DNA from: Xylona heveae TC161
Taxonomy: Eukaryota > Ascomycota > Xylonomycetes > Xylonales > Xylonaceae
Direction: 5' to 3'
Length of the DNA stretch: 64,000 nucleotides
Assembly: GCF_001619985.1 (NCBI RefSeq)
Contig: NW_017264195.1
Location: forward strand, 1,364,001 to 1,428,000
The notes beneath the pieces are model-generated. The model searched no databases. It was given only the letters and a program-made list of their open reading frames with translations, and had not been told where the DNA came from. Position numbers and translations under genes: made by a program. Shown here piece after piece: positions 1,950 to 62,189 of the stretch (its first letter is position 1; every line of letters starts with the position of its first letter).

Positions 1950-4219
1950 ATGGGTAAAAAGGACAAAAAGTCAAAGGTAGACAAAAAGGCCAGGGTCGCC
2001 GAAAAGCAGAGTAAAAAGGCGGCCCAGAAAGAGAAGAAGGCCAGCAAAAAGGGTCCCGCGGGTGACGATAGTGATGCTGAAGATGTTGATCTGGACGCTG
2101 TCCTTGCACAATATGCGGAGCAGGTAAGGCGATTCCTTGCCATCAAGAAAGCGGGTTATTGTCGCATATCTCGTGTTTTCCCCATGGGTTGCTATCGCTC
2201 GTTTGAACTGTTGTTTTGATTTTTCGTGTATAAATTCTTTTCAAATTTTGCTTTTCTGTCAATTTTGATTCAAAAAATTTGTACAGCCTGCTGATATGTC
2301 TATAGCAAGCACAATTTCTGAAAGTCACGGAAGTGGGATGTGAACCGCCCCCGTCAAGATCTTCAGCTACCCTGATCGGGTCCCCTTCAAACAGTAATGA
2401 ACTCTTTCTTTTTGGTGGCGAGTACTTCAATGGAGCTCTGGCAAAATTTTTCAATGACCTCTATGTCTATATAATAGACAAGGATGAGTGGCGACAAATC
2501 ACCAGTCCTAACAGTCCTCTTCCCCGAAGCGGTCACGCTTGGTGTCGAGGCGGCAATACCGGAGGAATCTATCTTTTCGGCGGAGAATTCTCTTCTCCAA
2601 AGCAGGGAACCTTCTATCACTACAATGACTTCTGGAGGTTAGAGCCATCAACTCGAGAATGGACTCGAATTGAGACCAAAGGCAAAGGCCCGCCAGCGCG
2701 GAGCGGCCACCGAATGACGTACTATAAAAACTACATCATCCTCTTCGGTGGCTTCCAGGACACTTCTCAGCAGACCAAATACCTCAATGATCTCTGGATT
2801 TATGACTGCTCGACCTTCACATGGCATAACCCTATTCTTCCCCAAGCAGCCCAAAAGCCCGATGCAAGGTCATCCTTTTCCTTCCTGCCCCACGATCAAG
2901 GCGCTGTTATTTATGGCGGTTATTCTCGAATAAAGCTCAATACGACGGCAGGAAGACAGACCAAAGGCGGCGGCGGTATGGCGCAACGGTCTATCCTGAA
3001 ACCTGTTATTCACCAAGACACTTGGTTCTTGCGCATTGTCCAGCCTGGGTCCGACGCACCTGCAAATGCCCCTCCGACCATCCGCTGGGAACGGCGCAAG
3101 CGGCCGGCTAACCCACCAAACCCGCCCCGAGCGGGTGTCACCATGGCCCACCACAAAGGCAGAGGTATTCTTTTTGGCGGCGTGTATGATGTCGAAGAAA
3201 GCGAAGAAGGCATCGACAGCGAGTTCTTCAACACCCTGTTCGCTTGGAACGTCGAGCGAAACCGATTCTTCCAGCTAACAATCCGCCGTCCTCGTAGCCC
3301 GCCAAAGAAGCAGCAGGCCGCTGATCGGGGAGGCAGACGTGGTCGTGGAAAGGCCGACGAAGAGGAGCTTCTTCGAAACCTGGCTGCCTTGGAAGCAAAG
3401 CTTTCCATAGATGACGCTGAATCGGTCAAAATTAGCAAGACTCCGGACGAGGATGAGGATGATGAGCCAGCGAAGCCGCAGAAAAACGTTCTCATGGAAC
3501 TTCCCCACCCCAGATTCAACACTGCAATGGCGGTACAGGACGACGTTCTCTATCTCTTCGGCGGAACCTTTGAAAAGGGCGACCGGGAATATACATTCGA
3601 TGAGATGTGGGCTGTCGATCTTGGAAAGCTTGATGGCGTTACGGAACTTTTCAAGCGCGAGCTGGAGAACTGGGAGGGCAGCGAGGACGAGGAAAGCGAG
3701 GAGGAAGATGAAGATGAAGAAGAAAGCGGCGATGAGTCCGACGCTGAGGCAGAGGCAGCAGCAGCAGAGGCCAGCACACGAGCGACATCGCTTGATTCTG
3801 AAGAAACCGCTGCCGCTGCTGCAAAAGCAAGCAAAGGCAAAGACGCCGAGGCGGCTGCCTCATCAGAGGACCCTGCAAACGCAACTGAGGATGCGACTGC
3901 CTCGTCCGCTCTTGCACAAGCTGACGGTCTGCCGTATCCAAGACCCTTTGAGTCTCTACGTGATTTCTTCGCCCGCTCATCGACACAGTGGCAAGACGTG
4001 TTGTTGGCGAAGCTTGAAAAAGCAGGTGTTGCTCCGGAAGCGAGGTCTATTAAGGAAATCAGGAAGCAGGCTTTCGAAATGGCAGAGGAAAAGTGGTGGG
4101 ATTGCAGAGAGGAAATTCGTGCCCTTGAGGATGAGCAGGAGGAGGCTGGTATTGGGGAAGTTGTTGCTCTCGAGGAGCGTGGGAGCGGTGGTGGAGGAGG
4201 TGCTGGTCGACGCCGGTAG
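1950..4219 (+). CDS. kel3: Kelch-repeat protein, KEL3/KLHDC4 family
   Basis: Two exons (1950-2123 and 2306-4219) encode 695 residues. Exon 1 is a lysine-rich, then acidic tail (starts MGKKDKKSK, then DDSDAEDVDLDAVL). The 182-nt intron has donor GTAAGG and acceptor TATAG, and exon 2 resumes in phase with QAQFLKVTEVGCEPPPSR. A kelch propeller follows, with blades recognisable by LFLFGGEYF, GGIYLFGGEF, YIILFGGFQD, AVIYGGYSR, GILFGGVYD and LYLFGGTFE. An acidic linker (about residues 500-560) leads to a C-terminal helical domain of the DUF4110 type (FESLRDFFARSSTQWQ, AFEMAEEKWWDCREE). The function of the family is poorly known; yeast Kel3 is cytoplasmic. Glycine-rich C-terminus. Identification is strong; function is not established. 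Confidence 0.93.
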
Positions 4220-7237: not shown

Positions 7238-10200
7238 ATGACGAAGAATAATTTACGGGAGCACATTTCTTGGTTGCTGGGGGCAAAACCATACCTGCCG
7301 CCCCAAATCGGACCGCTTCCGCCTTTGATAGACTCGATCTCGACAGACATCGCAGAGCCAATTGTACTTGAAGAGACCCTGTTTTATCCGCGACTAGAGC
7401 AAACAAACACGAAAGATGACTTTTTGGATCTCGACGCGTTTGATGCTGGACCTGAAGCAGGACTCACGCCCCCGCAATCACGAGAAACCTCGCGTTTCCC
7501 ACCACCGATAAACGCGGAGGAAATATCTATTGGTGCTCGCAACTCTGCTAACATGGCTCGACTTCGTTCCGCTCCGAACTCTTCTACTAAGCCCCGTCTT
7601 GTTAGTCGAATACTCTCGCCGGCCCACGCAGCTCCTACGAGAAGTACTCTCTCTGGAAAACCGGACTTTCACCAATATATCGAGGGTGAGTAATGGATGC
7701 CACTGTATCAGAATGGACACCGTAATACTAAACAAGAGCCTAAGGAACACCTTCTAATCGAGCGTCAAAATCAGTCTCATCTCTTAATGCCAAACCAGTG
7801 GATTCTCGGTCCAACCATCAATTGCTCACCCCGAGTCTCTCGTCCGCACATTCAGCAGCGTTCTATGTGGACTCAATTGATCTTACGGGCGATGCTGATA
7901 CGCAAACCGCTTCTTCAGATACAGTTGAAGCTTTTGGGGAGTCTAGGGCGATATGGAGAGAAGACTCCGCTTCGAGACAGGAGCCTTTGGTCAAAAGAGG
8001 AACAAAGAGGAAGAGCGAGGAATTCGAGAACGATACAGATCGAAGATCTACCTCGCGCGAACCCTCAGCGGGGTTCATAGCCATAGAGGCATTTCCAGAA
8101 GAAGCACCACAAACATTCTCAGAAAATCCTCCACGATCCCCGTCTCGAAACGCGTCTGATTCAACGGGTCTGCCTAGAGACTCCGATTCCTCGAGAACTT
8201 GGGGTAAAGGCGAATCTGGGAAGGAAATGCACGATGATACGGCAATCGGGAAAAGAAAACGAAAATCACTCAGCTCGATTTCTCCTTCGCCAAGTTCGAA
8301 GGTGACTAGTATATCGGAAATGCCTTCAACAAGATCACCAGCTAAACAACACCAACCAACGCACAGTCGCTCTAGGATGTCACAAGAAGATCCTGAGGCC
8401 TCAGACCCACCAACTTCGATACGTATGCCGCAAACTGCTCCTAGGATTAATGCCGGAACAAAAAGGCGCCTGAAGCCAGTGATCGAGGACTCTGAGGATG
8501 AAGAGGACGAACTTGCAAGGGATGATATGGAAGTAGATGATAAACACGAGATCGCGTCACGTTTAACTTCGCCGGAGAAACCACGGCATACGACTACGGA
8601 TGCTGACCGTCGAAAGCAGTGGTCCCAATCCAAAAATGAAAGTCAAATCGCAACTATTGGGGAGCTTGGAAACACTCATGTGAAGGGATCACCCAGAAAG
8701 TCAACGCGCAACGATCCAGTTGCTCCAATAGAAGACAGTAACGGCCCTTCGCCGTTTTATGAGGATTCGCCTACGAAGGCAAAGATGGTCCAGCCTTCCA
8801 GCGCTCAGTCCAATTGTGTTTCCTCTGCCCCAATATCTGAAGAAGAGAGAGCTTCCGTTCAACGATTTCTCAAGGTTCCGGCGACAAAAGTCGAAGAGGT
8901 TCTCAGTAAAACCCAATGGGAGCTTCGTGCAAACTCTGAAGCAATTTTTCAATATTTGTCCGAAGAAGGCGCCGAAGCGCCGGTCCAACTTACGGAACAG
9001 GGGAAATATCTGAGGAGCAAAAGTCAGTCACTCAAGGAATTGCTGGAAGTCAGGAATGAGTATATATCCTTGTTGGAGAAGAAGGAGAAACTTAAAGCCA
9101 GGGTCATTGAAGCGCTTGAGGAAGGACTAGAAACATCAGAATATCAAGGAGTTCTCGAAGAGAGTCGCTCAGCAACACAAACGCTCAAAAGGCTTGACGC
9201 AAAGGTTTTTTGGCTTCTGAAACAAGCCTCATTCACCAGTTGCGGCTCGGACCGAGCAACACAACCGCGAGAGGAGCAGGATTTGCGAGGAAGCGTCATG
9301 GTGCAATCCACGCAAGCCCCTTCCCAAACTTTTCAGACAACACCGCTTTCCAATCCCAACGAAGGATTTATACAAACACAGCTTGTTCATCAGACCCAAG
9401 TGCCAGTCTCGAACGAGCTGTCAGTATCACAGCGAGTAGGAGCGCCAAGCGTCACGTCAAACAACATTTTAGGTTCTCGTCCAATAGTACGAGAGAAGCC
9501 GAGCGCAGGCCAAATTCCCGCAATGCCAACTGCCAGAGGAATATCAGCTAGCTTGGGCGGTGATGATTGGAATGACGAGGAGGAGGAGGCTATGTTGCCC
9601 AAGCCTAGTTTCAGAGATGACATGAGAAGAGCAGGAGGGTCTCATTTCCATGCCAGTAATGGATCCCTAACTACTACCCAGCTGGGCCAGACTATTCCCG
9701 GAAAGGCGGCGAACGATGAGTATGAATTTGATGATGCTGTTTTTCAGGACGACGAAGAAGCTCTCTTTAGTAGGAATATGGGTCCTTCGGCGTTTGACAG
9801 GATGGAGGATGATGAGTTTTGTCATGATGATGATAATGACATGTTGGAGGTTGCCGAAAATTTGGAATATGAGCACTCGTTCCAATCGAGGGATCAAGAT
9901 TCTTTCACCTCACGTCAAGCACTGGCAGAAACATCCGGCAACATAAAGACGCCGAGGAAAGGCAAGGACACTGAAAGGCGCCGTGAAGTGAGCCAGACTT
10001 GCGAGAGTGCAAGCACCCCTGACATGATGCAGCACCCGTGGTCCAAAGAGGTCAAAGCAGCAATGAAGGAACGCTTCCATTTGCGAGGTTTTCGACACAA
10101 TCAGCTTGAGGCAATCAATGCAACGCTTGGTGGGAGGGATGTGTTTGTCCTCATGCCAACTGGAGGCGGCAAGTCGCTATGCTATCAGCTACCCTCCATT

Positions 10201-13020
10201 GTCAAGTCAGGCCGGACTCGTGGAGTGACTGTTGTGATATCGCCTCTTCTCAGTCTCATGCAGGATCAAGTTGAGCATCTCCAGAAGCTAAAGATCCAGG
10301 CGTTTTTCATCAACGGTGAGGTCAGTGCTCAGCGTCGCAGGCTGATTCAAGAAACCCTCCGGGAACCGAATGTTGAGCAGTTCATACAGTTGCTCTATGT
10401 GACGCCGGAAATGCTGAGCAAGAGCCAAGCTATGACAAATGCCTTCAGAAGTCTTTACAACCGAAAAAAACTAGCTCGTTTCGTCATTGATGAAGCACAT
10501 TGCGTGAGCCAATGGGGCCATGATTTTCGTCCAGACTACAAGTTGCTGGGAGAAGTCCGATTGGACTTCCCTGAGGTGCCAGTGATGGCTCTGACGGCGA
10601 CTGCTACGGAAAATGTCAAGGTAGACGTTATCCACAATCTTGGGATGGACGGATGCGAAGTGTTCACGCAAAGCTTCAACCGACCGAACCTGACCTATGA
10701 GGTGCGACCGAAAGCGAAAGCAACCGAAGTACTTGACAGCATTGCCGAAACAATTCAGAACTACCAGGGGCAGTCTGGAATCATTTATTGTCTTTCACGG
10801 AAGAATTGCGAAAGGATTGCGGCTAAACTGTGCCAGGAGTATGGTGTTAAGGCTTGCCATTATCATGCGGGAATGGAAAATAGCGAGCGAACAGAAATAC
10901 AAAAGCAATGGCAGAATGGAGAGTACGATGTTATCGTTGCCACAATTGCATTCGGAATGGGAATTGATAAGCCCGACGTTCGTTTTGTCATTCATCATAC
11001 CATTCCCAAGAGTCTCGAGGGATATTATCAGGAAACGGGCCGTGCTGGTCGAGATGGGAAGCGCTCGGGCTGCTATCTGTATTACGGGTATCAGGATACG
11101 ATGGGGATTAGAAAAATGATTGATGATGGAGATGGAAGCGAGGAACAAAAGGAGCGCCAACACAAAATGCTCCGCAATGTCGTTCAATTTTGCGAGAACA
11201 AGTCTGATTGCCGCCGCGTACAGGTCTTGGCCTACTTTAATGAGTCATTCAGGAAGGAAGACTGTCACAATGGATGTGACAACTGCAATTCCAAGAGCGT
11301 TTTTGAGACTCATGACTACACTGAATATGCTTCAAAAGCACTGAAGTTGGTGCGCCGATTTGGCCGGCAAAGAGTCACACTATTACAATGTGTGGACGTA
11401 TTTCGTGGCAGCAAAACTAAAAAGATCTTGGGCTCTGCGCAGTCAAGGTTTCCTGAGTATGGAGCAGGTTCGAAGTTGGAACGGGGCGAAGCTGAACGTC
11501 TGTTTTATCGTTTATTGAGCGAAGGTGCGCTAGAGGAGGTGAACGTGATGAACAGAAAGAAGTTTGCGACGCAGTATATACAGGTAAGCTTATCTGATTC
11601 CTCTTGAGTATGCAAGGAATGTGCTCACGAATCATGCAAATAGCCTGGAGGAAATTATATGGATTTCATGACGGGAAGAAGGCGAGTTAAAATTCAAGTT
11701 CGCGTGTCCCCTCGCAAAACGAAAGAATCATCGAATTCAACTAGGACCACCAAGAAAAATACTGGGGTGGAAGCATCACGTCATGAGTATCCCCAATCAA
11801 CAAATGTGTCTTCTCCGATACAGCAAGCCGCATCCCGGCGAAAAGTCAAGCAATACCGTTACGAAGAGAAAGGTGATGCCCAACTCCACCGTAACGGCTA
11901 TGCGCGTGATGAGTTTGTGGTCTCTGATAATGATCCTGGAGGCGCCGAGAGCACCGATAGCGATGATGGATTCGAGCCAATTCGTATTGCTGGGAGATCA
12001 AGGAAAGCGCCGAACAAGGAACTTGGACCGCCTATCACCACCGATGAAAAGCTTACCAGTCTCAACGCCATGCATGTGCTCGTGCTCGAAGATTTTATGC
12101 ACCATGCAAAATTGGTCAGTAATAAGGTGAGTAAAATATCACGACAATATAAAATGTTGGGATATAGATTCTCACACGCATGACTCTATAGATTATTGTG
12201 GACAAAGGACTTCGCTCTCAACCATTTAGCGACACCATATTGCGAGAAATGGCAATCAATTTCCCCAAAAGTATGTACTTGATGTAAGGGCCTCTGAATT
12301 TACATAAACTGACTCTGTGTCCTACAGATAAGGAAGAACTGCTTGAAATTCCGGGCATTGACCCGGAAAAGGTCAGGTTCTACGGGGAAACATTCTTGAA
12401 GCTGGTCTCGAGCGCCGAGAACCGATATACGACGCTGATGCGAGAGAACGAGGACCGCACGGCAGATCCAAACCAGGCCAATGTAATTGATATCAGCAGC
12501 GACGAGGGGGACGGCTTTGCTGCTGGCGCCTTTGGAGAGGTCGACGAATTCGGTGATCTCGATCCATCGCAAGAGCAACGCAGTTCATATTTTCAATCCG
12601 TGCCCGAAGTTGATGCTTTTAATGCCCAGTGTACGTTTGAGTGCAATCTTCAAAGCCTTTCCTAAAGTCTGACACCGTTGCTGACTTCCTTCTCTGAATA
12701 CAGTCACTCAATTAGAGCCACCCGCTCAAACTTCCCGCTCCGAGCCCGCGGGTCAAACCTCTGGACCCTCTCGAGCTTTTAGCGACAAAGTAAATAGCCG
12801 GAGCCGATCAAAAAGTGGAACGGGCTCCGGCGGGAAGAGAGGCTCCTCCCGAGCTGGAGGTAGCGGAAATAAGAGCCAAAGCCAAAGTAGAGTGACAAAA
12901 CGGTCAACAGGCTCGAGAACAAGCGGCGGCAAATCAGCAAGCGCCTCGAGCTCCAAACAAAGTGGCGGTCGACAAGCTACTCTGACTGGCGGTCGAGGAA
13001 TCGGCATGATGCCGATTTAG
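7238..13020 (+). CDS. sgs1: RecQ-family DNA helicase (Sgs1/BLM/MusN/QDE-3 type)
   Basis: Six exons (7238-7685, 7745-11583, 11644-12126, 12192-12270, 12328-12630, 12704-13020) encode 1822 residues. This is an ATP-dependent 3'-5' helicase that would act in the nucleus with topoisomerase III on recombination and replication intermediates. The N-terminal ~900 residues are disordered and acidic/Ser-rich, as in Sgs1. The helicase core has Walker [14 protein letters not shown] (Lys959), DEAH at 1065-1068 and the RecQ-specific [14 protein letters not shown]. The zinc-binding part has Cys1299, 1305, 1323, 1327 and 1330. Winged-helix (RQC) and HRDC domains follow; HRDC (about 1567-1645) is split by two introns. 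The tail is Ser/Gly/Lys/Arg-rich and ends in [10 protein letters not shown]. Each intron joins in phase and restores family sequence, for example [19 protein letters not shown]. Start [14 protein letters not shown] matches the fungal family. Confidence 0.96.
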
Positions 13021-24000: not shown

Positions 24001-27000
24001 GTCTAAATAGTATAGAGAAGTTTCGAAATCACACTGCGCTCCAAACTCGCCCTCGCCTAAACCTGAGCTGGCGATCGTCGACCGCTCCGCCCAAGTTGTC
24101 TGGAGCTTTGAGAGGATGAGCACAAGAATTCTTAGGAAAGTTAGTCCGGTTATTTCGAGATCAGGTAGAACTGTCGAACGAGATCGAGATACTTTACTTA
24201 CTTGTCGATGCTAAGGAGCGTTTGGAGCCAACTCCTGACGAACATGAAATTCCCAATTTCTTTCTCGGAAAGACCATCCAGGAGCAGGAACAATGGCCGA
24301 GTGAGCATTGTCTCAAAATTTCCCGCTGCTACTCTGCTTGGTCGCCGATCACCTTCAGACGCAGTTGCAGGAAGCGCCTGCCCACTTTCGGGTTGTACTT
24401 GTACGCTGTGAGTCCAAAGTACCGCAAATCTGTTGGCGGTGTTCATGTCATGCTCTTCGTAAGCTTCAGCCTTTGAGCCGTGTATCACGAGCCGAGAAAT
24501 AACTGCCTCAACCTGACGCTCCATCGGAGTCAGAGATTCGAGATGCCAAAGACATCGAACGGTCTCAACGTGGTATTTCGGTTGGGCCGGAGACAGCAGA
24601 TCCCACGCTCGTTGCACAAGTGGATCCACCAGCTTGGTGATTTGGCCTTCCAAGTCATGGCCGGGATTACCAGATGACAAAAGAGCTGAGGTGACGGTTA
24701 TTAGAGCAGAGAAGATTGAGTACGACAGGTCAATGTCTGAAATATCATTTGATGATTGCAAAGCGAATTGGAATGCTTCAAAAAGCTCATTCCGATCGAT
24801 CGACTCTGGCCGGGGGAGTTTGTTTAACATTGCCACAAAGAGCTTTGTTCGGTACTCGATAGATGAAGCTGACTGCGAGCGAAGACCCCGAGACAATGAC
24901 CCGGAGACCTCATATAGAAGCAACTCGCCAACCTCCTTTGCTGGGAAAGGCGGGTTTGAAATGTCGAGATTTCCTTGTGCCTGAACATAGAATCGTCTAA
25001 TCTTCCCTAACAGCTCGCCAGGCTTGGAGATAGACGGCTGGCTTGGTCGTCGAGGAGTAGTGGACAGTTCAGTAGCAGTACTTACGAGAAAGGCCCGCTT
25101 CGGAATCATTTCCATTAGATGGTTGGCGATACTCAAAGCTTGGCTTAGAATCCGCTCTTCAGAATCGGAATTCCCTGATGATTGTTTCACATCTCGCGAC
25201 CTGACCAATGCTAATAGGGCAAGAGTCACCAAAGGCATATGAACGATCAGCATCTCTTCTTCCCTGATGTTGAAGTGATTAACAATAAAGTCCACAAGAT
25301 CAAGCTTTTCTTGTCTTATACGAGCGTTCAATGAGGTATCATTCAAGGCAGCTGTAACCAGACCAAAAATCTCGCCCCATATCAAGCCACTTTCCACACC
25401 GTCGAAAAAAACACTAGCACTTCTGAGTACTTCAGAAAAATTATCATATGAGGTTGCAATATGCTCATAGGATCGAACATTCTCCAGCGCAGGGAGAAAG
25501 ATTGCTGGTATCAGCAGCTCGCCAACTTCCCAGCGATCCATTAGAGACAAGCATATTTTGAAAGGTCGAGCTCTTTCCCCAGGCGCTTTTATTGGACGAT
25601 CGACAAGTGCCCTGAGGCTCCGAATCAGCGGCTGAAGCCCGAACTTTTTCAAATAGTGGGCGTGATCAGGTCTGATATTAGTATCGCCAGACGACGGCGT
25701 ATCAGGTACACGGTCATTCTCCGAGGTAGAGGATGATTCAGGTCCTAGGAGCCAGACCCATAATCGCCGATTCAAGCTCATGTCTCTGCGAGCGACCACG
25801 CCCGCCGCAGCCCCAACTAGTTTCTCCAGGTCTGCCGGGTTTGCCTTGCTTTGCAAAACCGATGAATCTAGCGGCAGATGTGTTACCAGTAAGTCCAGGA
25901 ACCCTCTTTGGATGAGGATATTTTCGTCGGATAAGCCTGTTATGAAGCATCTGATCAAAAGGCCTGGCTCCGGGGACACAACATCTTCTACTGATGAAGG
26001 GCTTTCTACAGAGTCGACCCCATTTCCTTCAATGGATGTGTCCGACTGCACTGATCCGCGACGAGGGTCGACTCCGAGTTTCGGTAGCCGTCTGGCAAGA
26101 AAGGCCAGTGCACCTTGCCTCCTGCTTGGGCCCGTAATAGACGATAAGAAGAAGCATTGCCAGAAGTATGAATCGCCAGTTCCGTAGATCTTGTCCAACG
26201 TGATCGTCTCCTTGTCTCTGAGGGCATCTCGGAACCCGTCTAGAATTCGAAATGTGCGCTCAAAATCTTCGCTGGTCTCTTCTTCTAAGCCAGGAAGCAG
26301 GGAGAGAATGATTGCTTTCAGGGCAGGACGGAGGGCAGTTTTATCAAGTCTAAGTACGTGTTCTTCCAGGAGCGATAGAAACGCGGGCCGAACGGAAAGA
26401 GAGGCGAATGACAAGGTCGGAGTCAATCCTGGAAGATACTGGGGCAGGTCGCGGGCTAGGTGTTCTCTCTGCAGTTTGCGCAGCATTAGTGACATTCCAC
26501 TAGTGGTAAGTCCTGCAGAGTCTTGTACATACGCCAATTGTGGAGAATATGAATGCGTAGACGTCTAGAGCTTTTTGATGCACGCCGGACGGCAGGGAAG
26601 GGTTCATGCATTGTGCCAGGCGCTTAGCAACAATCGTCTTATGAGGAATTACGGTGATATTAGGAGGATGTGTTTGCAGAGCCTAAAGTTCAATGCATCA
26701 GCTTCTGTCAAGTTAGGAGGGACTAGTTGATGCTGACTTTGAGCAGGCGGCCTAGGAATGAAATGTAGTCTGCCCATTCTTGCAAAGCAGTCTCAAATAA
26801 TGCTAACACACGAGCTACATTGGAGGCATATCTTCGATATGATTTGTCCTTTTTGAGTTCCTCTAAAGACGCACGAGCAAGTCAATTGCTGTCCAATTCT
26901 TTTGAAAGTTTCTGAATAAATAAGAATTGTAACGTACCCTCTTCAACTCTGGACTGAGCCAGATGGTTTATAGGGGAGGATCGACCAGAGCTTGCTGGGG

Positions 27001-27333: not shown

Positions 27334-29662
27334 ATGGAGGAGTCTAAAGAAAGCCAGAAAGAGTCTGGTCAAGCCGGCAATGGACAGCCATCCCCGGAGA
27401 GCTCCAAGCCGAGGACGCCAGAGCAGGAAGCTAGAATACCAGGTAATGGGGGAAATGGCAGCTCTGGGACAAATGTTGAGGGGCGTGAAGAGGCACAAGA
27501 CAATGCTTTAGTTGCAGAGACAATTTCACGTACGGTTCACAGCAAAGATTCATCTGAAATTGACCGAGAGTCATCTGCCGAGACCCCTCCACCATTACCT
27601 CCCCGGCCAGTAAATCTGGAATCAACTGATGCGCAGAATACCTTGCATCTGTCTGGAAAGCAAGCCCGGCCCAAGTTACAATCACATCCGACGACTGCAG
27701 TGTCATTAACCGACATTAGCACGCAGGTAAACAATGAAGGAATTCGGGAGACGTATCCCAGCACCACTGGAGGCCTTACTTCCCCGCTGTCAGTCGCCAG
27801 TCAATTCAACAATCGGTTCGGGAGTCCAAAGAGCAGTGAAACAGAAGATACTGCTAGCATCAAGAGCTATGTCCCTACATTGGAGACGGGCGGAGATGTG
27901 GAAAGTCTACTTGGAGAGGTCCTGGGGAATGGGCAGCAAGACCCCGCCTGGAGGTTTATGACCGCTCAGGGCGAGAACCAGAACGCTGCCGATGAACTTC
28001 TGCCCGAAGATGCAGCGTTTGAGAAGGATTTTCAGAAGGAGTTCAAAGAGCTTGAAGCGATCAATGCAGAGGGCACAAATGAAGGTGGGTTTTACCGTCT
28101 ACTGCGTTGCGATGGATCCGTACTTATAGTTTATCATAGAGGCTGTTCTAGACGCATGGACATCACGAATGAAGCATTTTCTCATCTTATCTGCTGCCGG
28201 CAAACCCATTTATAGTCGACATGGAGACGATAACATTACATCGGGCTACATTGGAATCATACAGACGATCATTTCCTTTTACCAAAACGCAGACGACACG
28301 CTGAAAAGCTTCACCGCGGGTGATGTTAAATTTGTTGTGCTCTCAAAGACTTCATTGTATCTAGTCGCTATCAGCCGGCTGGGAGAAAGCGATGGACAGC
28401 TCCGAGCGCAATTGGAAGCGCTTTATATGCAGATTTTGTCGACATTGACACTTCCACGGCTGCAAACCATATTTTCAAACCGGCCTTCTTCTGATCTGCG
28501 GAGGCCGCTTTCGGGCACGGAGCCATTGCTCTCTGCTTTGGCCGATACTTTTACTCGTGGCTCTCCGCCAACACTCTTATCCGCACTCGAATGTCTGAGA
28601 CTCCGAAAATCGCATCGACAAGTGATTGACCAGACATTGCTCAAAACGCGGACCGAGAATCTCTTGTACGGATTAATTGTGGCAGGTGGACGGCTCGTCA
28701 GTGTCGTTCGGCCCAAGAAGCATTCTCTCCATCCTAGCGATCTGCAGCTGATTTTCAACATGCTCTTTGAGACAGAAGGGGTAAAGACTGCTGGCGGTGA
28801 GAATTGGATACCCCTTTGTCTGCCAGGCTTCAACAATACTGGATTTTTGTACATGTACGTGAGCTTCTTGAGCGCAAAGGAAGACGAGAACGAGGATGAG
28901 AGTCAAAGGCCAAGCACATCGTCTTCCTTCAACAAGGAAGAAGAGGTAGCTGTTTTGCTCATCAGTCCCAAAAAGGAGAGTTTCTACGAAATGCAGCAAA
29001 TGCGTGATGACGTTGTTGAGGTGAGTGTTCCTTTCGAATTCTATACCTGATGGACGACAGTCCATTTACTTGTCAATCTAGCAACTTCAAAAGAATGGCA
29101 GCATGGACTTGATCAAGGCAGCCGTCCGTCGAGGACGACCTCATGTGACCGATGTGGTCCCAGGCACTGTACTGCGTCACTTTTTGTACAAGTCAAAAGC
29201 AAATGTTCAATTTGCTATGCCATCATTTGAGCCGCATTTCAAAGGCTTAGTCGCTCGACGAAAGTATGTTTCTTTGAATGGTTTAAGAACTTGATGCTTA
29301 CGCGACTTGTAGGCTTTTATCGATATATCATACATTACATGCCAATGTGCATTCCAAAATCTCCCATCTCAAAGTCCATTACTGCGTCAGCCGGGACTCG
29401 ATTTCACTCGCGTGGACAACACCTCTTTTTGAGCTGTACTGTGTTGCCGGCCCGTCTGCGAGTCGCGGTGCTCTCGCGCAAAGCGCAAACAAGGTTGTCC
29501 AATGGGCTCGAAAGGAGGAGGAGCGAATATTTATCATCGGAGGAGCTGTACGTACTTTTCAAAGATTTTTGTCAATTCTTCCTCTTGGTCCTCTGTTATT
29601 TTGCCCTTTACTTCCTGATCTTCCTTTCATCTTCACTCGCTAATCACTTGCAGGTATTCTAA
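27334..29662 (+). CDS. mon1: MON1, vacuolar fusion protein
   Basis: Five exons (27334-28084, 28140-29020, 29082-29263, 29313-29547, 29654-29662) encode 685 residues. Mon1 pairs with Ccz1 as the guanine-nucleotide exchange factor of Rab7/Ypt7 on late endosomes, autophagosomes and vacuoles. The first ~250 residues are disordered, with a proline run (PPPLPPRP). Three longin-like domains follow: [60 protein letters not shown], then [21 protein letters not shown]. The C-terminal part reads [17 protein letters not shown]-type sequence and IFIIGGA. The last exon is only 9 nt (Val-Phe-stop), but it is supported by the CACTTGCAG acceptor and by family ends in GGAVF or similar. All five exons join in phase. 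Confidence 0.94.
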
Positions 29663-49963: not shown

Positions 49964-50343
49964 GGTTGCAACTTTGGTCGAACCATATGAACCAAATTTG
50001 TCACAAGTGAACGTGGGGACAACTACTATTTTGGCCGGAGGTTGAAGATCAGGGGAAGCAGGGTCCGACACCCCCCCGGTTATCGCCGCGTAAGAGCTTA
50101 AATTATGCATTTTCACAACTAATCTTTTATGCATCGTTCTGCGTTTATGCTCTCCACCAACCACCATTACTTACCTTGACTTGCAGGTACAGTGGAGCCG
50201 CAACGCCGCCAAGAGCTCGCGATCAAGTTCAAGTTCCATTCTACTAGAGCTCACTTCAACCGATTTCCTGGAGAAGCTCATCTTGAAATTACTTTGATCG
50301 TCCAGGTTTCTTTTCGCCGCGCCGAACGAGCAGCTGTTCAATT
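49964..50343. promoter_or_regulatory. Shared GUP1/ARP4 promoter region
   Basis: A 380-bp region between divergent starts. On the minus strand part of it is open in frame with GUP1. No separate gene recognised. Confidence 0.6.
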
Positions 50344-52189
50344 ATGGCTGCAGCTCAAAGTTCCTCCATCCCTCCCTCCAACGTGGAGTACGGAGGAGGT
50401 ACGTAGTGCACAGGCATATGGATCGCATACCGTTCGATTCGCTGACTTTTGATATTGCAGATGAAATCTCTGCCATCGTCCTTGATCCCGGTTACTCGAG
50501 CATGCGAGCCGGCTTCGCGGGAGAGGATGTACCTAAAGCCGTCGTGCCCTCGGACTATGGTATCCTAGGTTCAGGTTCCGAGGAAAAGTACCTGTTCGGC
50601 GACAACTCGATACACACACCTCTTCCGGGCCTTTCTATCAAAAACCCTATGTCCAAGGATGGCACCGTCGAGGACTGGGACACTGCGACCAAGGTTTGGG
50701 AGCATGCGATCACTTCCCGTCTGACAAGCGGCAAAGCAGGCGATCCCGCGACAAATGGCTTGAACGACCCGAGCAATGAGGATGGAGACGCGAAGATGGA
50801 AACCGCAGACGAAGGAGAGAAGCCGTTGGAGGAGAACCCTCTACTGATGACCGAGACGGGATGGAATCCGGCCAAGTCGAGAGAAAAGGCAATTGAGCTT
50901 GCCATGGAGAATTGGGGCTGCCCTGCCTTTTGGCTCGCTCGGAACGGTGTCCTATCTGCGTATGTTGGACTTTCAGCTGCCTAATATTCTGGGTCAATGC
51001 GCTTACATTCTTAATACAGCTTCGCCGCGGGTCGGGCATCGGCACTCGTTATTGATCTCGGAGCATCCAACGTCTCCGTCACACCTGTCCACGACGGATT
51101 AGTTCTGAAGAAGGGTACGCACCGCCTTAGACTCGAATCTTTTGGAGGGGAAAGATGGTTAACATTATACAGGCGTTACGCGCTCTCCTCTCGCTGGAAA
51201 CTTTGTGTCCGATCAATTGCGCCTCTTATTCTCGAGCTCGCAACCTCAGATCCCCTTGACACCGCACTACCTCGTATCATCCAAGCAGCCTGTGGACGCT
51301 GGCTCACCCGCACAAGCTACCTACAAGACCTTTGCCAACCCGCCCGACGCCAGCTTCCGACGACTTCAAGAAGATCGCGTTCTTACAGAATTCAAAGAAT
51401 CCGTCGTGCAAGTGTGGGGTGGGCCTGGCCGATTGAGCTCCGGCGCACAGGGCACTACCAACGAAGACGTCGTCAAAACATGGCCTGGTCGCCCATTCGA
51501 GATGCCTGATGGATGGAACCAGGTCTTTGGCGCAGAACGGTTCAAGGCCGTCGAGGGCATTTTCGATGCCAAGGCCGCACTCAGTGTATGTTCCTCAAGC
51601 CCAACCCGTCCTTTACATCCCAACATGAAGCAAAATCGAAGAAAAAGGCTAACTGTTTTGTGATTTCTTCCAATTTCCAGGACGCCGACCATCCCGCTCC
51701 TACCCAAAACCAGACCCTCCCGGCCCTGATTCAAGCCTCCCTCAACAATGTCGACGTAGATATCCGACCCCATCTTCTCGGCAACGTCGTCGTCACCGGC
51801 GGCACATCACTCCTCTACGGTCTCACCGACCGTCTCAATAGCGAACTCCAGCAACTCTACCCCGCCGTGCGCGTGCGTATCCAAGCTCCCGGAAATACGT
51901 CCGAGCGACGCTTCGCTTCATGGATCGGCGGTAGTATCGTCGCCAGCTTGGGTACCTTTCACCAGGTATGTCATTTGCCTGTGCCTTCGCCTTTGCTCTT
52001 CTTNNNNNNNNNNNNNNNNNNNNNNNNNNNNNNNNNNNCCCTCCTTTTCCCCCTTCCCTTTCTTTAGCACTCCTTCCATCTCGTCCGAAACCATCTGGAA
52101 TCATACTAACGCAACTCAACTAGATGTGGATATCCAAGAAGGAATACGACGAGCACGGCGCCGGCATCGTCGAAAAGCGGTGCAAGTAG
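50344..52189 (+). CDS. arp4: ARP4, actin-related protein 4
   Basis: Six exons (50344-50398, 50461-50959, 51020-51114, 51173-51585, 51681-51965, 52124-52189) encode 470 residues. Arp4 is a nuclear actin-like subunit of the NuA4, SWR1 and INO80 chromatin complexes. Landmarks: [20 protein letters not shown], the Arp4-type insert (about residues 80-145, acidic), [20 protein letters not shown]-like phosphate loop ([20 protein letters not shown]), [57 protein letters not shown] and [12 protein letters not shown]. All exons join in phase. A 35-base N gap (52004-52038) lies inside the last intron, so the coding sequence is intact. Confidence 0.96.
52004..52038. other. Assembly gap (35 N)
   Basis: Run of N inside the fifth ARP4 intron, flanked by CT-rich sequence that could be hard to sequence. 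The true length is unknown. Confidence 0.99.
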
Positions 52190-53341
52190 TGCCGGATCCC
52201 TTGGAAATTTTGTTCTCTGTTTTCTCTTTATTTCTACTTCTCTTTTCATTGTTTCCATTTTCGTTGTTTCCCTTTCTCTTTTCCTTAGTCTATTCCCCGA
52301 CGCGACCCCAATCCTTCCTCATGTGAAGACTTTTCCCCCCAACAGACTTTTGGTCTTTTCGGATCATAGGAGGGAAAAAAGAAAAAGTTTCTTTTCATTC
52401 ATATCAAAAGAAAAGCGTCGCCTCCAACAGCCCAGCCCAGCCCACGGAACACGGACCAGAGCGAGCTCTTTCTTTTCTTTTCTATACTTCCCAAATCGAT
52501 TGTGGCTTGCGGGCCATGTGTTACACTACAAGGCAGTATAGTTTGGCGTTCTTATCTTGTTGAAAGCGGTTCTGGGAATAAATATCCCCCCTACGATACA
52601 AATTAGACGAAAATCGAATTCGATGTGAGATACTTTTATCTCGTACGAGATAATTGTGCAGTAATGCAGTAATGCAGTAATGCAGTAATGCGGTAATGAA
52701 GTATATAGTATACAGTATACAGTATACAGTGAGGAAAGGAAGCTTATTTGGTTGATTGGCAGATTTGGATCATTATAGAAGTTCTTTGTTATTTTTTACC
52801 GTAGCATCCATCATCTATTCTCGTGTTTTCAATGATTTGAACGCGGTATAGAAAGCGCATGGAATATAAAAAGAGAAATATCAACGGATAAGGGATAAGG
52901 GAAATGGAGACATGTAGAGAAATATGGATCGGGCAAAAAAAGAAAAGAGGAGTTGAAAAAGGATATTTCATTGATATAAGACCTGGGTATCTAGATAGAA
53001 GAGAAGTTGAGGAGGCAATGACCAGATTGCAAGTGGAGTAAATCGTGAGAAAGTGAAGAGGTACTAGTAAAACATGAAGTGGGGGAAGGTAAAAGCCAGA
53101 AAAGGTACGAGATATTGGGGGAAACAATGAACATCAAGAACCAACGGGGAATCATCAAGGTCATGACCAGAGACATAAAATCATAAACAAGAAGTCTTAA
53201 AACACGTGAATGAGAAAAGAGAGGGACAGTGTAGACTCCAGCACCAGCCCCATGACTCCTGTTTGTCCTCTGTCAATTGTAGGGAAGAAAAAAAAAAAAA
53301 GAAAGAAGACAAAAAAATGACAAGAAGCTAGGTCTTTCAGC
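52190..53341. other. Convergent 3' region, ARP4 and RxxS-repeat gene
   Basis: 1.15 kb. CT-rich on the plus strand after ARP4, purine-rich on the plus strand before the minus-strand gene, as expected of two 3' regions. It holds a short tandem (TGCAGTAA units, about 52661-52700, and TATACAG units, 52705-52730). No gene recognised. Confidence 0.6.
52661..52730. repeat. Short tandem repeats (AGTAATGC and ATACAGT units)
   Basis: Four to five units of an 8-9-bp TGCAGTAA type, then three of the TATACAG type. Minisatellite-like and unremarkable. Confidence 0.85.
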
Positions 53342-55967
53342 TTATGCGGCAACTTCAAGCCCGAGCTCAGACTTGCTCTCAGTCTCGGCTTCTTCACCTA
53401 AACTGCTCAGACGCTTCAACTGCGGTGCAGAGGGGTGATGGCGGAGTTTGCCTATTGCAAGGGTGTCAGTCGATGGCTTACACGCTAATATTACTCAGCA
53501 GGATTGTTACTTACGGCGAAAAAGAGACTTGAGACTTGGAACACTTGAGCGGCGTCTAAGGCCATGTTGAGGCGGTATAAATTCAGATAGTTGATGGCAG
53601 TCATTTGCATCCTGCAGCACTGGCGCCGTGGTTGATGACCGAGATGGGCTTGAAGACTGCGCCGGCGTCGGGACTTCTGCCTCAAATGGCAACTCGGGCG
53701 TCTCTTGCTCCAGAATTGTTTCCATCACAGGCTGACTCGACTCGTCGACCACATCCGTTGTGGTGACCGGATGCGAGGCAAGTGGTGAAGGCTGGGGCTC
53801 GTTAGCAGGTGACGTGTCCGTTCGAACAGGTTCTTCTGCGGTCGAGCTCTTGCGCGGAGAAACGTTGGCATTGGAGTCGTGGGAGGATTGCCGTGAAGAT
53901 TTCTCGGGACGGCCTCCTTGTCGTTTCCGTAGGGAGAATCGACGGACTAGCGAGCCTGTTCGAGAGAGAGGAGGTGCAGCTTCAAGGGCCGCCTGCATTA
54001 CTTCCTCGGCCGCTGGCTCTGTTGATAGCCTTGGGAACGGCTCGTTAGGTGTTGAGGTAGGCTCTTGGGGCTTTTCTCCAAAGGCTCCCAAGTCGGGAGG
54101 GGGCAAAGGTAAAGGCGAAGATATTTGCAGTGTCCGCCGTGGACGCTGTCGCCGGGACAAACGCCGCCTTAGATTGGATGCGCCTGATGCTGGCGCTTCC
54201 GAGGCAGGAGTAGAATCCTCTACCGTAGGGCCTGGCTCTCCAGGATGCCCTTCTTCTTGTCCAAGGGACTCCTGAGCTGTCAGTTGCTGCTCCGCATGTC
54301 GTCTTCTGCGAACCGAAAGATGACGAGTGATGGAATTTGACTTTGAAAACGGACGATCAGCCGCGTGAGGAATGACCGAGCCTTGGTTGGTGGATGGATT
54401 TTCTTGCTGAGACGAGGATTCTGGGCGCGAATCCGCTGTGTGGTTGGAGTTGCCAGAAGAGTAAGTAGAGTCTTGTCGTTTCCGAGTTTGACTGTTTCCT
54501 TTGGGTTTGCGCCGCGAGAGCTTGCGAACAATAGAACTTGTCTTTGACATTGGTGGGGTGGAAAGGGGAGGAATCCTGGTGGCTGGGTAATTTGACTCCA
54601 TTTCACGTTGCGGCCGAGTCTGCAAGCAAATATCCGCGGATGCCCTTGACTCCTGAACCACAAAAGCAGACCCCAGTGCAGTTGGCATCTGTTGTTGATC
54701 TTGCTGCTGCCTTTTGCTTGGTCTTGGCCTCTTGCGAAGGGAGAATTTGCGTGCAAGAGAGCCCGCTCGTGCAATCGTCTGGACTGCAGATGTCGGAGCC
54801 TCTCCATTGAGTTTCTCAAACGTATCAACAGCGTTGGAAATTTGCAACTGCTCCGAATTGTCAAAGGATTGCCGCTTATGAGATCCTGCATTCTCCTTGA
54901 AATGAAAATCGAAGCGATCGAACTCAATTGATAGGGATCTTGCCGGTAACGCAGTTGGTGAGAGCGGCGGGGATGGTGGAATGTCAATCATCGATGCTCT
55001 CTGTTGCACCAAAGTAGCATTGGCGCCCGCAGCAAACTAAAATTCATTTATCAGCCTCATCTCATTCAGCTCACACGGGATGCAAGTGCCTTACCCTAGT
55101 CCTCCGGCTCGCATTCCCAGCACGGCGTTGAATTTCCTCCACAAGGCTGCCTAACTGTGACAGCGCTACTGCGAGGGTATTACCCTTCATTTGCAACGAG
55201 CAGAATGCACGATACCATCCATCTGCATTGCCCCGCATTGCCGAGAAGAAATTAGATAATTCACCCTCCGGGTCCTCTGAGACGATATCGTTCTCGTCAA
55301 TCTTATTCAGATAGCCGTTCAGTTCCAAAATCGCGGCTACACCACTCAAAACATCCTTTAAAGCATCAGCCATGGCGCTCGAGGTCCGATTGATGATGTG
55401 GTCAATCATTTCGTTTCCCTCAACAATCGATCGTCGAAATCTGCGGTCTTCGAGCATGGTGTCGAAAACGTCAGAATGTTGGAGGGGCAAGCGAAGGTAT
55501 TCCATCCTTTCTTGGATATCTTTTTGTGCCAGATCAAAGTCATCGAACGTCTTCTCAATAAATGAATCTATCTCGTCCACATGTGTCTGCAAGATTCGAA
55601 AGACTTCTTCATCTGATTTCGCTAACCGCTGGTGGACCAGATGGACGCCAAATGAAATCTGCGCAACAAGTTTCCACAGCGGGTCGAATCGCTCATCTGC
55701 CTTTTTCTGCCATCGACTGGCTCCAGTGGACTCAAACGAATTTTGCCGTAGAAGCCGCTTTCGTTTCGACGCGGCATCGCCAGTTTCTAGACGGGACTGC
55801 GCTTCGGCACATTCAAGAGTTTCCAGCAATGACTCCTCAAAGGCGCCTTGCATGGACGACAATGGGTGTATAGGTGGTTGATCCATAATACCATTACTGT
55901 CTGACGCAGCTGTCATTGCGGATGAGTCAAAACTTGCCAAACTGGCGTGGTGAGCATGAGCTCCCAT
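53342..55967 (-). CDS. Uncharacterised protein with helical N-domain and five basic RxxS motifs
   Basis: Three exons (55967-55095, 55036-53515, 53451-53342) encode 834 residues. I do not recognise a named family. Residues 90-290 look like an all-helical domain (WKLVAQISFGVHLVHQRLAK, IDSFIEKTFDDFDLAQKDIQ, MADALKDVLSGVAAILELNG). The rest is disordered, Ser/Pro/Gln-rich and contains five motifs of the type S-[LI]-x-R-[KR]-[FL]-S-x-R-[KR] at about 383-394, 458-468, 525-537, 578-589 and 652-663. Related basic stretches lie near the C-terminus (SLKSLFRRK; LKRLSS). The motifs fit R-R/K-x-S kinase sites and polybasic membrane-binding patches. Each exon joins in phase; exon 3 gives a sensible C-terminus ending GLEVAA. 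Role unknown. Confidence 0.87.
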
Positions 55968-58900: not shown

Positions 58901-60357
58901 GCGGGTCGGTCGTCATCACATCTCTGTTTGTCTTGTCATCTTCAAATCTATTGCATCTCCCTCGCATCAATGAAAACGACAGTTGCAGACTTTCATACGA
59001 TAAATCGACCAAAGTGCGAACCGTTGCTACGAATTCTCAGGAGACAGAACCTCAGCTCTATGATTCGGTCAGAAATTTACAGCCGAGTATGAACCAGCCT
59101 TTCATCCTCTCTAGACAAGAGCTCAGAGTAGGGACGTCATGCTTTCAAATACGTCGTCTATCAGTGGATGAAGCCATTATCCCGGGTTCAATGATCGATG
59201 GTGCCTGGACTCATCTCCACGGGCATGATCCGACATTCCGAGATAGACGCGGTATGCCACGCATGACATGGGCTTGAACAACACCTCACGGTCAATTCCA
59301 ATGGACTGACACAGTAAACATGAGAGATGGGCTGCTTTCGATTATTATTATGCGAATTACCTACGTCTACCGGAGATGCTGACCGCGGAGAAACAAAATA
59401 CGTGGGTCCAACGCGTTTCTTATCGTTATCTTTCCGGTCTGAAAATAATCAGACATGGCGATCCTCTCGCGGCATGACATCGCTGACAGCTTTGGCCCTG
59501 GGCTTCTGAAAGATAAGGCTCCCGGTACAGGAACGCCAAGGGGGAAGAGGCTACATGCTAATTTGTCCAATATCTTCACCTTTCCTAAAAAGTTGCAAGC
59601 CATTCTCTGAAAGCGTATAGCTCCCGGTCACTGCGCTGATAAGGGTTTCGGCAAGTCTTATTGGTTCTTTGGTTCCTTGCGCCTTGATCAACACTGGATT
59701 TTCCGTCCCACGCATGTGAAACATCATCGTTTTTTTTGGCCATGGACTTGCTGGATCCAATTGAATTTTCTTCGAGCCGCTTCGACAGATCCTACCATGA
59801 CTAGATGAGCATGACACCGTGACCGTCCTTTTGACGTGCAGCATTAGCAAAAATGAGAAAGGCCGGCGATCTAGATTCAACTATATGGTATTTGCATTCT
59901 CCAAGCCACAATCCGATCGACAATAAAGGCGGTTGGCCTTTGCCAAAAGATCTAGTGGAACCCCTTATCGGCAATTCATCTCGCATCACTTTCTGGGGGT
60001 GGTCGAACTAAATACAGAGCCGTCATTCTGGGGCTTGATCGTCTCGGCCGTCACTTGTGGGGTTCCGGACAAGGTCTCCTACGCAAATCCGCGGATTTAC
60101 TTTGCATCTCTTCTGCGTTGACCAAATGCCTGTCTTTAATTCGGTAGGCTAAGTCGTCCAAACTATTAAAACCAAGTCGATGCTCTTGATATCCACCGGC
60201 TCTATCACCATTCTCCAACAAGCAAAGCATACTAGGGGAATATTTTCCATTATTTTTTTCTGGTGTTGTTTGTTTTGCTCAACTGCAACCGCCAGAAGTG
60301 TTTCTGAGAGACTATATACCATCTCGAGGCTTCTTGCCGTCATAATCCCCTGTCGAC
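55968..60357. other. Gene-poor region of 4.4 kb
   Basis: I found no family-like sequence in any frame, allowing for splicing. The longest frames are 132 codons (58030-57632, minus) and 160 codons (58795-59277, plus), without recognised motifs. A T20 run lies at 57136-57155. Contains the promoter of the RxxS-repeat gene at the left and of the nitrate transporter at the right. Decayed genes cannot be excluded. Confidence 0.5.
60085..60098. promoter_or_regulatory. 14-bp perfect palindrome upstream of the nitrate transporter
   Basis: AAATCCGCGGATTT is its own reverse complement, 260 bp before the transporter ATG. It has a CCG/CGG inverted pair as bound by Zn2Cys6 dimers, and on each strand ATCCGCGG differs from the known NirA site CTCCGHGG at one base. 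Binding is an inference. Confidence 0.55.
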
Positions 60358-62189
60358 ATGGGTGTTGATCTAGCAATTATTTTCAAGGCCCCTAGGGTCA
60401 ATCCCATCAACCGAAAAGCGCAAACGATTCCTGCCCTTAACCCTATCAACACATATGGACGTGTCTTCTTTTTCTCCTGGTTTGGTTTCATGATTGCATT
60501 CTGGTCGTGGTATGATGGAATTGTTCTCTTCGTCCGTTTCTAAAGGATTGCTTCGCTAATGAGATGATAGGTATGCTTTTCCACCATTGGTGCGTCTAAA
60601 CAAAATCCCTTTGACAAGACTCAATATCTTATGGGGCCTAAACTAATCGTGCACAGATGACCTTGACCATTTCAAAAGACTTGAAATTGTCTCAGGCAGA
60701 TGTTTCCAACTCGAACATTATTGCATTGGCAGCAACGTAAGTTCCAATCGTAATAAACAACTCTCCTTTAAATATAAGCTAAACTAATCTTTTAATTTTA
60801 GGTTAATTGTTCGTCTCGTCGCTGGCCCTGCCTGTGACCGCTGGGGTCCTCGATATACCTTTGCGGGATGTCTTCTTGCTGGGGCCGTTCCCACTGTTCT
60901 TGCCGGCTGTGTATTCAATGCCAAGGGACTTTTGGCTCTCCGCTTCTTCATCGGTATCCTTGGCGGGTCCTTTGTACCTTGCCAGGTCTGGTCGACGGGG
61001 TTCTTTGACAAGAACATTGTCGGAACCGCCAATGCCTTGACTGGCGGTCTAGGTAACGCTGGCGGTGGTATCACGTACTTTGTCATGCCCGCCATTTTCG
61101 AGTCGCTTGTCAAAAACCAACACTTGAGCCCCCACACGGCCTGGCGTGTTGCTTTTGTTGTGCCATTTATCCTCATTACTGCCACTGCCATTGCGCTTGT
61201 TCTCCTCTGCCCTGACACCCCGACTGGCAAATGGAGTGAGCGTCACCTCGCAGCCGAACAGAATCTCGAAGCTCACCAAGTCGACCGTCACGAGGTTGAG
61301 GGTCAAGTCGTCGACATTCCCGAACACCAGGCCGGCGAGCGCAAGGAGAGTCAACCAGACTCCATCACTCCGCCGGCCATTGACATGGACGAAAAGGCCA
61401 ATACTGAAGGCAAGGCATACGCCGATCGAGAAGCCCAACTCGGCGAGCAGCAAATGCTTGACACCGCCAAAGGCGAGGTCATTTCCAAGCCAACCTTCCG
61501 CGAAGCTCTTCCCGTCATTTTCTCTTTGCCTACGCTTACTTTGGCCGGCTGCTACTTTTGCACGTTTGGCGCTGAGCTCTCCATCAACAGCATCCTCGGC
61601 GCATACTACCTCCACAAATTTCCTCGTCTGGGCCAGAGCGAGTCAGGAAATTGGGCTGCCATGTTCGGTCTGCTCAACGTCGTGTGCCGTCCCATTGGCG
61701 GTTTCTTCTCCGACTTTGCTTACCGCCGCAGCAAAAACCTCTGGGTCAAGAAGATCCTGGTGCACAGCTACTCGATCATCAACGGTGCCTTTTTATTGGC
61801 TATTGGTCTAACTAACCCGTCTAAAGAGGCTACCATGTTTGGTCTCTTTGCTGGAATGGCTTTCTTTCTTGAGGGCGCCAACGGCGCCAACTTTTCTCTC
61901 GTTCCCCACGTCCATCCTTTTGCCAATGGTACGTACCCACCACACTCTTAGACTTTGTGAATCATGTTCATATCAGTTAAACTAACATGGCATTTCAATA
62001 GGTATCGTCTCCGGTCTCACCGGCGCTGCAGGCAACCTTGGCGGTATCATTTTCGCCATCATCTTCCGTTACAACGGCAAAGATTACGCCCGAAGCATTT
62101 GGATCATTGGTGTCATCACCCTCGCCATCAACGTCTCTTTGTCTTGGATTAGACCTATTCCCCGCAGCCAAATCGGCGGAACATTATAA
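60358..62189 (+). CDS. crnA: Nitrate/nitrite transporter (CrnA/NrtA, NNP family of MFS)
   Basis: Five exons (60358-60509, 60571-60589, 60657-60736, 60802-61928, 62002-62189) encode 521 residues. Plasma-membrane proton-coupled nitrate importer. Both nitrate signatures are present: [17 protein letters not shown] in TM5 and [16 protein letters not shown] in TM11. TM2 has the MFS motif [13 protein letters not shown], and the conserved arginine of the substrate site lies in [14 protein letters not shown] ~90-residue charged cytoplasmic loop (about 235-325) sits between the two halves, as in fungal CrnA. Exon 2 is only 19 nt but is required: it restores [19 protein letters not shown]. All phases match. 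No nitrate reductase or nitrite reductase gene lies in this window, so this copy is not in a visible nitrate cluster. Likely induced by nitrate via NirA/AreA, inferred. Confidence 0.96.

Follow-up and report, generated by a model that had tools for sequence, protein, structure and literature searches.

The closest described systems to the protein reported here are the animal substrates of aPKC, the MARCKS protein, and the substrates of yeast Pkc1. The aPKC substrates are described as carrying basic/hydrophobic (BH) motifs that keep them on the plasma membrane until phosphorylation frees them (PMC5783611, PMC4998004), and the MARCKS effector domain, which is strongly basic and contains several PKC serines, is described as an electrostatic switch (PMC4602126). 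For yeast Pkc1, a review gives R or K at both -3 and +2 as the minimal preference, and adds that Arg at +2 improves a peptide substrate and that losing the basic residues at +4 and +5 weakens binding (PMC5618247). Another study covers 65 yeast-human kinase pairs and names yeast Pkc1 as one of the 6 that diverge most in specificity, and metazoan PKC logic should therefore be transferred to it with care (PMC7809594). In the filamentous fungi Aspergillus nidulans and Neurospora crassa, PKC is reported to localise to the tips of hyphae and to septa as they form, and it is essential, or suggested to be so, in several filamentous species (PMC3509046).

We analysed a stretch of 64,000 nucleotides from Xylona heveae TC161 (the window), in which one gene encodes a protein with five spaced copies of a short basic motif. 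The gene lies on the minus strand, with its ATG at position 55967 and its stop codon at 53342, and its 3 exons join into a single frame that encodes a product of 834 aa. The coordinates proposed in an earlier note on this DNA, 53342..55967, were found to be correct, with GT..AG at both introns. The parts of the gene are as follows:

55967-55095, minus strand: exon 1, residues 1-291, a short N-terminal segment and a predicted all-helical region (from the open frame and splice site)
55098..55715, minus strand: predicted helical region, residues 85-290, acidic, pI 5.0
55037..55094, minus strand: intron 1, 58 nt, GT..AG
55036-53515, minus strand: exon 2, residues 292-798 and one base of 799, the Ser/Pro-rich basic tail with all 5 motifs
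54731..54760, minus strand: motif copy 1, aa 384-393, SLARKFSLRK
54506..54535, minus strand: motif copy 2, aa 459-468, SIVRKLSRRK, with the lowest pseudosubstrate score among the five copies (see below)
54305..54334, minus strand: motif copy 3, aa 526-535, SITRHLSVRR, with the lowest leave-one-out score, 13.7
54146..54175, minus strand: motif copy 4, aa 579-588, NLRRRLSRRQ, with a leave-one-out score of 14.3
53924..53953, minus strand: motif copy 5, aa 653-662, SLVRRFSLRK
53515..53557, minus strand: sixth basic block, aa 785-799, RRRSSVPSLKSLFRR, not a motif copy
53452..53514, minus strand: intron 2, 63 nt, GT..AG
53451-53342, minus strand: exon 3, the protein end and stop

Two single-sequence AlphaFold2 models predicted the N-terminal region to be all helix at low confidence (pLDDT 43 and 47), and because of these values no fold is claimed for residues 85-290. 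The tail (residues 291-834) is basic, with a pI of 9.9. Serine and proline account for 14.5% and 11.0% of its residues, compared with 10.5% and 6.8% in a background of 43 ORFs of at least 300 aa from the same genome, which bears out its earlier description as Ser/Pro-rich. Relative to the same background, the tail is rich in Arg (9.7 vs 7.6), poor in Lys (3.7 vs 4.9) and Gly (3.9 vs 6.5), and not enriched in His (2.4 vs 2.5). Judged from composition alone, it is probably disordered. The sixth basic block, close to the end of the tail, has a net charge of +8 per 21 residues and contains RRSSVP, a strict 14-3-3-like match; the motif model scores it at -0.6 (at aa 786), versus at least 30 for the motif copies.

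The motif copies are spaced 75, 67, 53, and 74 aa apart. The earlier note had described them by the expression [S/N]-[LI]-x-R-[KR]-[FL]-S-x-R-[KR]; the array of five proved real, but the expression as first written literally matches only three copies, with copy 3 carrying H for [KR] and copy 4 carrying Q for the last [KR]. When H and Q were allowed, all five copies matched, compared with a mean of 0.00005 matches in shuffled tails, and none of 20,000 shuffles reached five. In a leave-one-out analysis, a model made from four copies was scored on the whole protein and on 93,790 background windows, drawn from 566 stop-to-stop ORFs, not all of them genes. Each of the five copies was the top window of the protein once the other four were set aside, and the background windows that equalled or exceeded copies 1 to 5 numbered 0, 0, 0, 2, and 0 of 93,790, respectively. 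Copy 3 stood narrowly above the background maximum (13.7 vs 13.3). Three columns alone are invariant in the alignment, R(-3), S(0), and R(+2); the copies carry L or I at -5 and F or L at -1. Around every copy, a stretch of 21 residues has a net charge of +7 to +9. The earlier description of the motifs as amphipathic did not hold up, as their hydrophobic moments fell between the 4th and 79th percentiles of those of shuffled versions, an ordinary range. An amphipathic helix or strand is not known to be a requirement of BH motifs.

A comparison between the copies gave signs of constraint on the motif at the protein level. The 11-residue cores share a mean of 53% identity and the four residues that precede them share 30%, while identity in the farther flanks is 11% and 9%, where 8% is expected at random. 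Within the cores, the same codon was used in 14 of 58 same-residue pairs, versus 12.0 expected from the gene's own usage. As the copies share their peptide but not synonymous bases, the array does not appear to stem from a recent duplication of DNA. A recent tandem duplication was rejected on these grounds, with synonymous sites unrelated and DNA repeats short and weak; the best of them, between copies 1 and 5, spans 38 nt at 71%, and there is one exact 13-mer. From the sequences, the motif peptide appears to have been either kept, or arrived at more than once, which speaks for selection in an indirect way.

Within the sequence sampled, such an array belongs to this gene alone. Neither 416 ORFs taken from 200 kb of the genome nor 150 ORFs from the rest of the window contained a slightly widened form of the full motif. 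For the core R[KRH][FLIVM]S.R, there were 5 hits in the 416 ORFs and none in the 150 window ORFs, never two per ORF, and the looser form R.[FLIVM]S.[RK] occurred 22 and 11 times, with two or more occurrences per ORF in a single one of the 416. Searches of the organism's own genome covered 24.3 Mb on 17 contigs. There, the core DNA pattern was found in 496 places, compared with 603 for its reversed control, which is no enrichment, and the sole match of a 20-aa motif peptide was the peptide itself.

Searches for relatives of the whole protein were similarly negative. No paralogue was found in the same genome at E up to 1, the three matches being the gene itself. Exon 1 gave 3 and 29 pattern matches against viral and prokaryotic contigs, respectively, none of which was confirmed as a relative. 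No Pfam family matched above its curated cut-off (sole listing PF21111, E 0.043, 14.5 bits vs a cut-off of 27), consistent with the earlier view that the helical domain belongs to no recognised family. The best PDB matches were at the level of chance, both by sequence (E 0.58, dynein light chains, residues 65-113) and by motif profile (E 4.9), and a Foldseek search with the second AlphaFold2 model gave a best E of 1.4 and a top probability of 0.16 among the best 50 of 128 matches. Six motif strings were absent from the literature searched, and the protein itself is not named there; within that literature it is undescribed, while the kind of mechanism considered below is already known.

Among the Pfam-assigned neighbours in the window, none hints at the function of the motif-array protein:

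window 2306-4216: Kelch/DUF4110 protein (Pfam)
window 7744-11604: RecQ-type helicase (Pfam)
window 24201-26564: Dopey (Pfam)
window 28130-29047: MON1-type longin protein (Pfam)
window 50298-50981: actin-family protein (Pfam)
window 60788-61948: MFS transporter (Pfam)

The window also encodes a Zn(2)-Cys(6) domain of fungal type and a tRNA-Met (cat) at 59029-59125, whose 97 bases are long enough to hold an intron. Together with a KAR9-family gene (see below) and the genome size, the Zn(2)-Cys(6) domain gives the genome a fungal look, and the Pezizomycotina named in the earlier note are a plausible affiliation. Downstream of the gene, short tandem stretches of the gcagtaat and tacagtata types were seen by eye at 52660-52735, and a run of N, either unsequenced or masked, lies at 52004-52038, between this gene and the next one upstream in the window.

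The invariant columns of the motif correspond to the preference described for Pkc1. Arg is present at both -3 and +2 in 5/5 copies, and all five also have a basic residue at +4 or +5. The pattern R..[ST].R combined with a basic residue at +4 or +5 has five matches in the tail, every one of them at a motif, whereas shuffled tails contain 0.26 on average and 0 of 10,000 reach five. For R..S.R, the five occurrences compare with a mean of 0.73, and 7 of 10,000 shuffles reach five. The excess is modest, for so basic a tail, with the most permissive form, [RK]..[ST].[RK] (5 vs a mean of 2.0; 513 of 10,000 shuffles reach five). The earlier note had placed the central serines in a PKA/AGC-type context. 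The repeated basophilic AGC-kinase context stands, and R(-3), R(+2), and the basic residues at +4/+5 sharpen it towards PKC/Pkc1.

A Pkc1-like locus was found on the plus strand of another contig of the genome (C13), where two HR1 domains, a C1 domain, and a Pkinase_C segment lie within about 4 kb, the latter about 2 kb past C1. This order, established from the domains that flank the kinase, matches the layout of fungal Pkc1. Directly upstream of C1, the locus encodes LNRKGAIRQRK, which by its place and its Ala is the apparent pseudosubstrate of the Pkc1-like kinase. The motif copies resemble it, for example copies 1 (LARKFSLRKRP) and 5 (LVRRFSLRKRQ), but have F or L at -1, where the pseudosubstrate has Gly. 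All 153 S/T sites of the protein were scored against the pseudosubstrate, leaving its centre out of account, and ranks 1-4 and joint 7th went to the central serines of the five copies. The top five sites, comprising four central serines and S653, which is the -6 serine of copy 5, scored 17 to 21, while the fifth-best site of 3,000 shuffled tails never scored above 13. A single high score is not rare, as the best site of the same shuffled tails averaged 10.9 and reached 27. Among 15,394 background S/T sites, 2 equalled or exceeded the best copy, and the score of copy 2, 11, was reached by 0.5%. The closest background match, IKRRGSLRQRP (score 31), lies in a 549-aa ORF at C1:1860001-1870000 of the same genome, and is perhaps another Pkc1 target.

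Because the motif resembles the apparent pseudosubstrate of the same fungus's PKC, the protein can be put forward as a candidate PKC target. Of the readings considered, we favour the array as a set of PKC-type acceptor sites, and the protein as a multi-site target of its own PKC, although we give this somewhat less than an even chance.

The central serines could instead belong to a multi-site substrate of a PKA- or CAMK-type kinase that is read out by 14-3-3, as suggested in the earlier note. R-[KR]-x-S does fit four of the five copies, four copies carry a serine at -6 with R or K at -9, and the PKA-type pattern [RK][RK].[ST][^P] occurs 9 times in the tail, four copies included, against a shuffle mean of 1.82. 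The permissive 14-3-3 form, which comes from ELM, matches the tail 16 times, compared with 9.54 in shuffles (P 0.026), and hits copies 1, 3, and 5. No copy, however, matches the strict form, which requires Pro at +2; its only tail matches are at aa 627, 696, and 786 (the last being RRSSVP), all outside the copies and not clearly above chance (P 0.07), which leaves the case for 14-3-3 binding weak. Neither PKA nor 14-3-3 preferences are known to account for the invariant Arg at +2 and the later basic residues, and we regard this reading as unlikely. Other signalling patterns gave little: the NDR/LATS (Cbk1) pattern, with H at -5 and basic residues at -3/-2, had 0 matches, the Akt-type R.R..[ST] had 1, equal to the chance expectation, and RVxF and PxIxIT were not found. 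A second possibility takes the basic Ser/Pro-rich tail as a microtubule or plus-end adaptor with SxIP-like motifs for EB1, in which phosphorylation of the basic repeats tunes microtubule binding as in Kar9-type adaptors. Two [ST]xIP sites are present (TRIP at 444 and SVIP at 511, vs 0.30 expected), and the genome's KAR9-family protein likewise carries two such sites, SRIP and SLIP, within a tail rich in Ser. That protein is encoded about 49 kb away on the same contig and strand (C3:1468524-1470644, E 3.5e-78), and holds an SLRKFS without the Arg at +2. The Kar9 family (PF08580) thus shares a basic Ser-rich tail with SxIP-like motifs, and the N-terminal part of Kar9 is helical, as is predicted here. 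The SxIP count is marginal, however, with P 0.032 among 17 expressions tried, and no sequence relationship was found: PF08580 was not listed for our protein at E up to 10 (the HMMER filters drop most weak matches), BLASTP against the own-genome KAR9 protein gave a best E of 1.2, and that protein, the product of a separate gene, has no match to the motif core. An adaptor of this type seems distinctly unlikely.

Two further readings concern the basic, arginine-rich character of the tail. The copies may be patches for nuclear localisation or nucleic-acid binding, with the serines regulatory or incidental. A bipartite-type NLS pattern occurs 3 times, vs 0.05 expected, once at copy 2 and twice in the C-terminal block, and the MARCKS effector domain has been reported as a nuclear localisation signal (PMC4607481). 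In the tail, though, the monopartite K[KR].[KR] does not rise above chance (1 vs 0.34), and an NLS needs neither an invariant Ser nor L/I at -5 and F/L at -1, which makes this reading quite improbable. The protein might also be a septal-pore protein whose disordered tail makes it accumulate or aggregate at the pore, with the motifs as stickers. In the SPP/SPA proteins of filamentous fungi, disordered regions next to ordered ones are reported to show a bias to R and H and a depletion of K and G (PMC10023807). The ordered and disordered layout of our protein and its R-rich, K- and G-poor tail resemble this. The His bias of the SPP/SPA regions is missing here, with 2.4 in the tail vs 2.5 in the background, and, on a comparison made by composition alone, we see such a role as clearly unlikely too.

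Returning to the reading as a PKC target, we propose a mechanism in which Pkc1 would phosphorylate the central serines of the five copies. The unphosphorylated patches, being basic and hydrophobic, might, more speculatively, hold the tail on an acidic membrane or the cortex, and phosphorylation at several sites might then free it. The N-terminal helical region would carry a binding partner, and the site of action would be where fungal PKC works, at hyphal tips and septa. With a positive charge of +7 to +9 and hydrophobic residues at -5 and -1 around the serine, the copies have the local properties of BH motifs and electrostatic switches. They share with the BH motifs of the aPKC substrates Miranda, Numb, and Lgl a short basic/hydrophobic stretch with an embedded PKC-class serine. 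Those proteins are animal and paired with another kinase branch, however, whereas here there are five spaced copies per chain and membrane binding is putative. MARCKS is alike in its strongly basic stretch with PKC-type serines, but it has one dense block and a myristate, in contrast to five separate blocks here. The start of our protein, MGAHAH, departs from the myristoylation pattern, so MARCKS-like myristoylation was rejected and no second membrane anchor is seen. The likeness to fungal Pkc1 substrates and to the pseudosubstrate lies in R(-3), S, R(+2), the basic residues at +4/+5, and the resemblance to LNRKGAIRQRK; in contrast to these, the motifs have F/L rather than Gly at -1, and their phosphorylation is predicted.

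The same resemblance allows a more specific variant, in which the tail would be a multivalent PKC trap, its five near-pseudosubstrates with a central Ser occupying or buffering Pkc1 catalytic domains at the cortex. We consider this highly unlikely, although it has a parallel in the Par3/Kibra-type aPKC inhibitor that is also a substrate (PMC4998004). If it were true, the protein would set a threshold for cell-wall-integrity signalling and let go once all five sites were phosphorylated.

What is new here, as read from the sequence, is that the three invariant residues of the motif match a minimal Pkc1 site and that the motif resembles the apparent pseudosubstrate of the organism's own Pkc1-like kinase. 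A short linear motif could thus be tied to a likely kinase from a single genome, by way of the kinase's own pseudosubstrate. To our knowledge, few direct targets of fungal PKC are firmly established. With five clean candidate sites in a single tail, the protein would be useful as a PKC reporter and for asking how thresholds at the cortex arise from phosphorylation at multiple sites.
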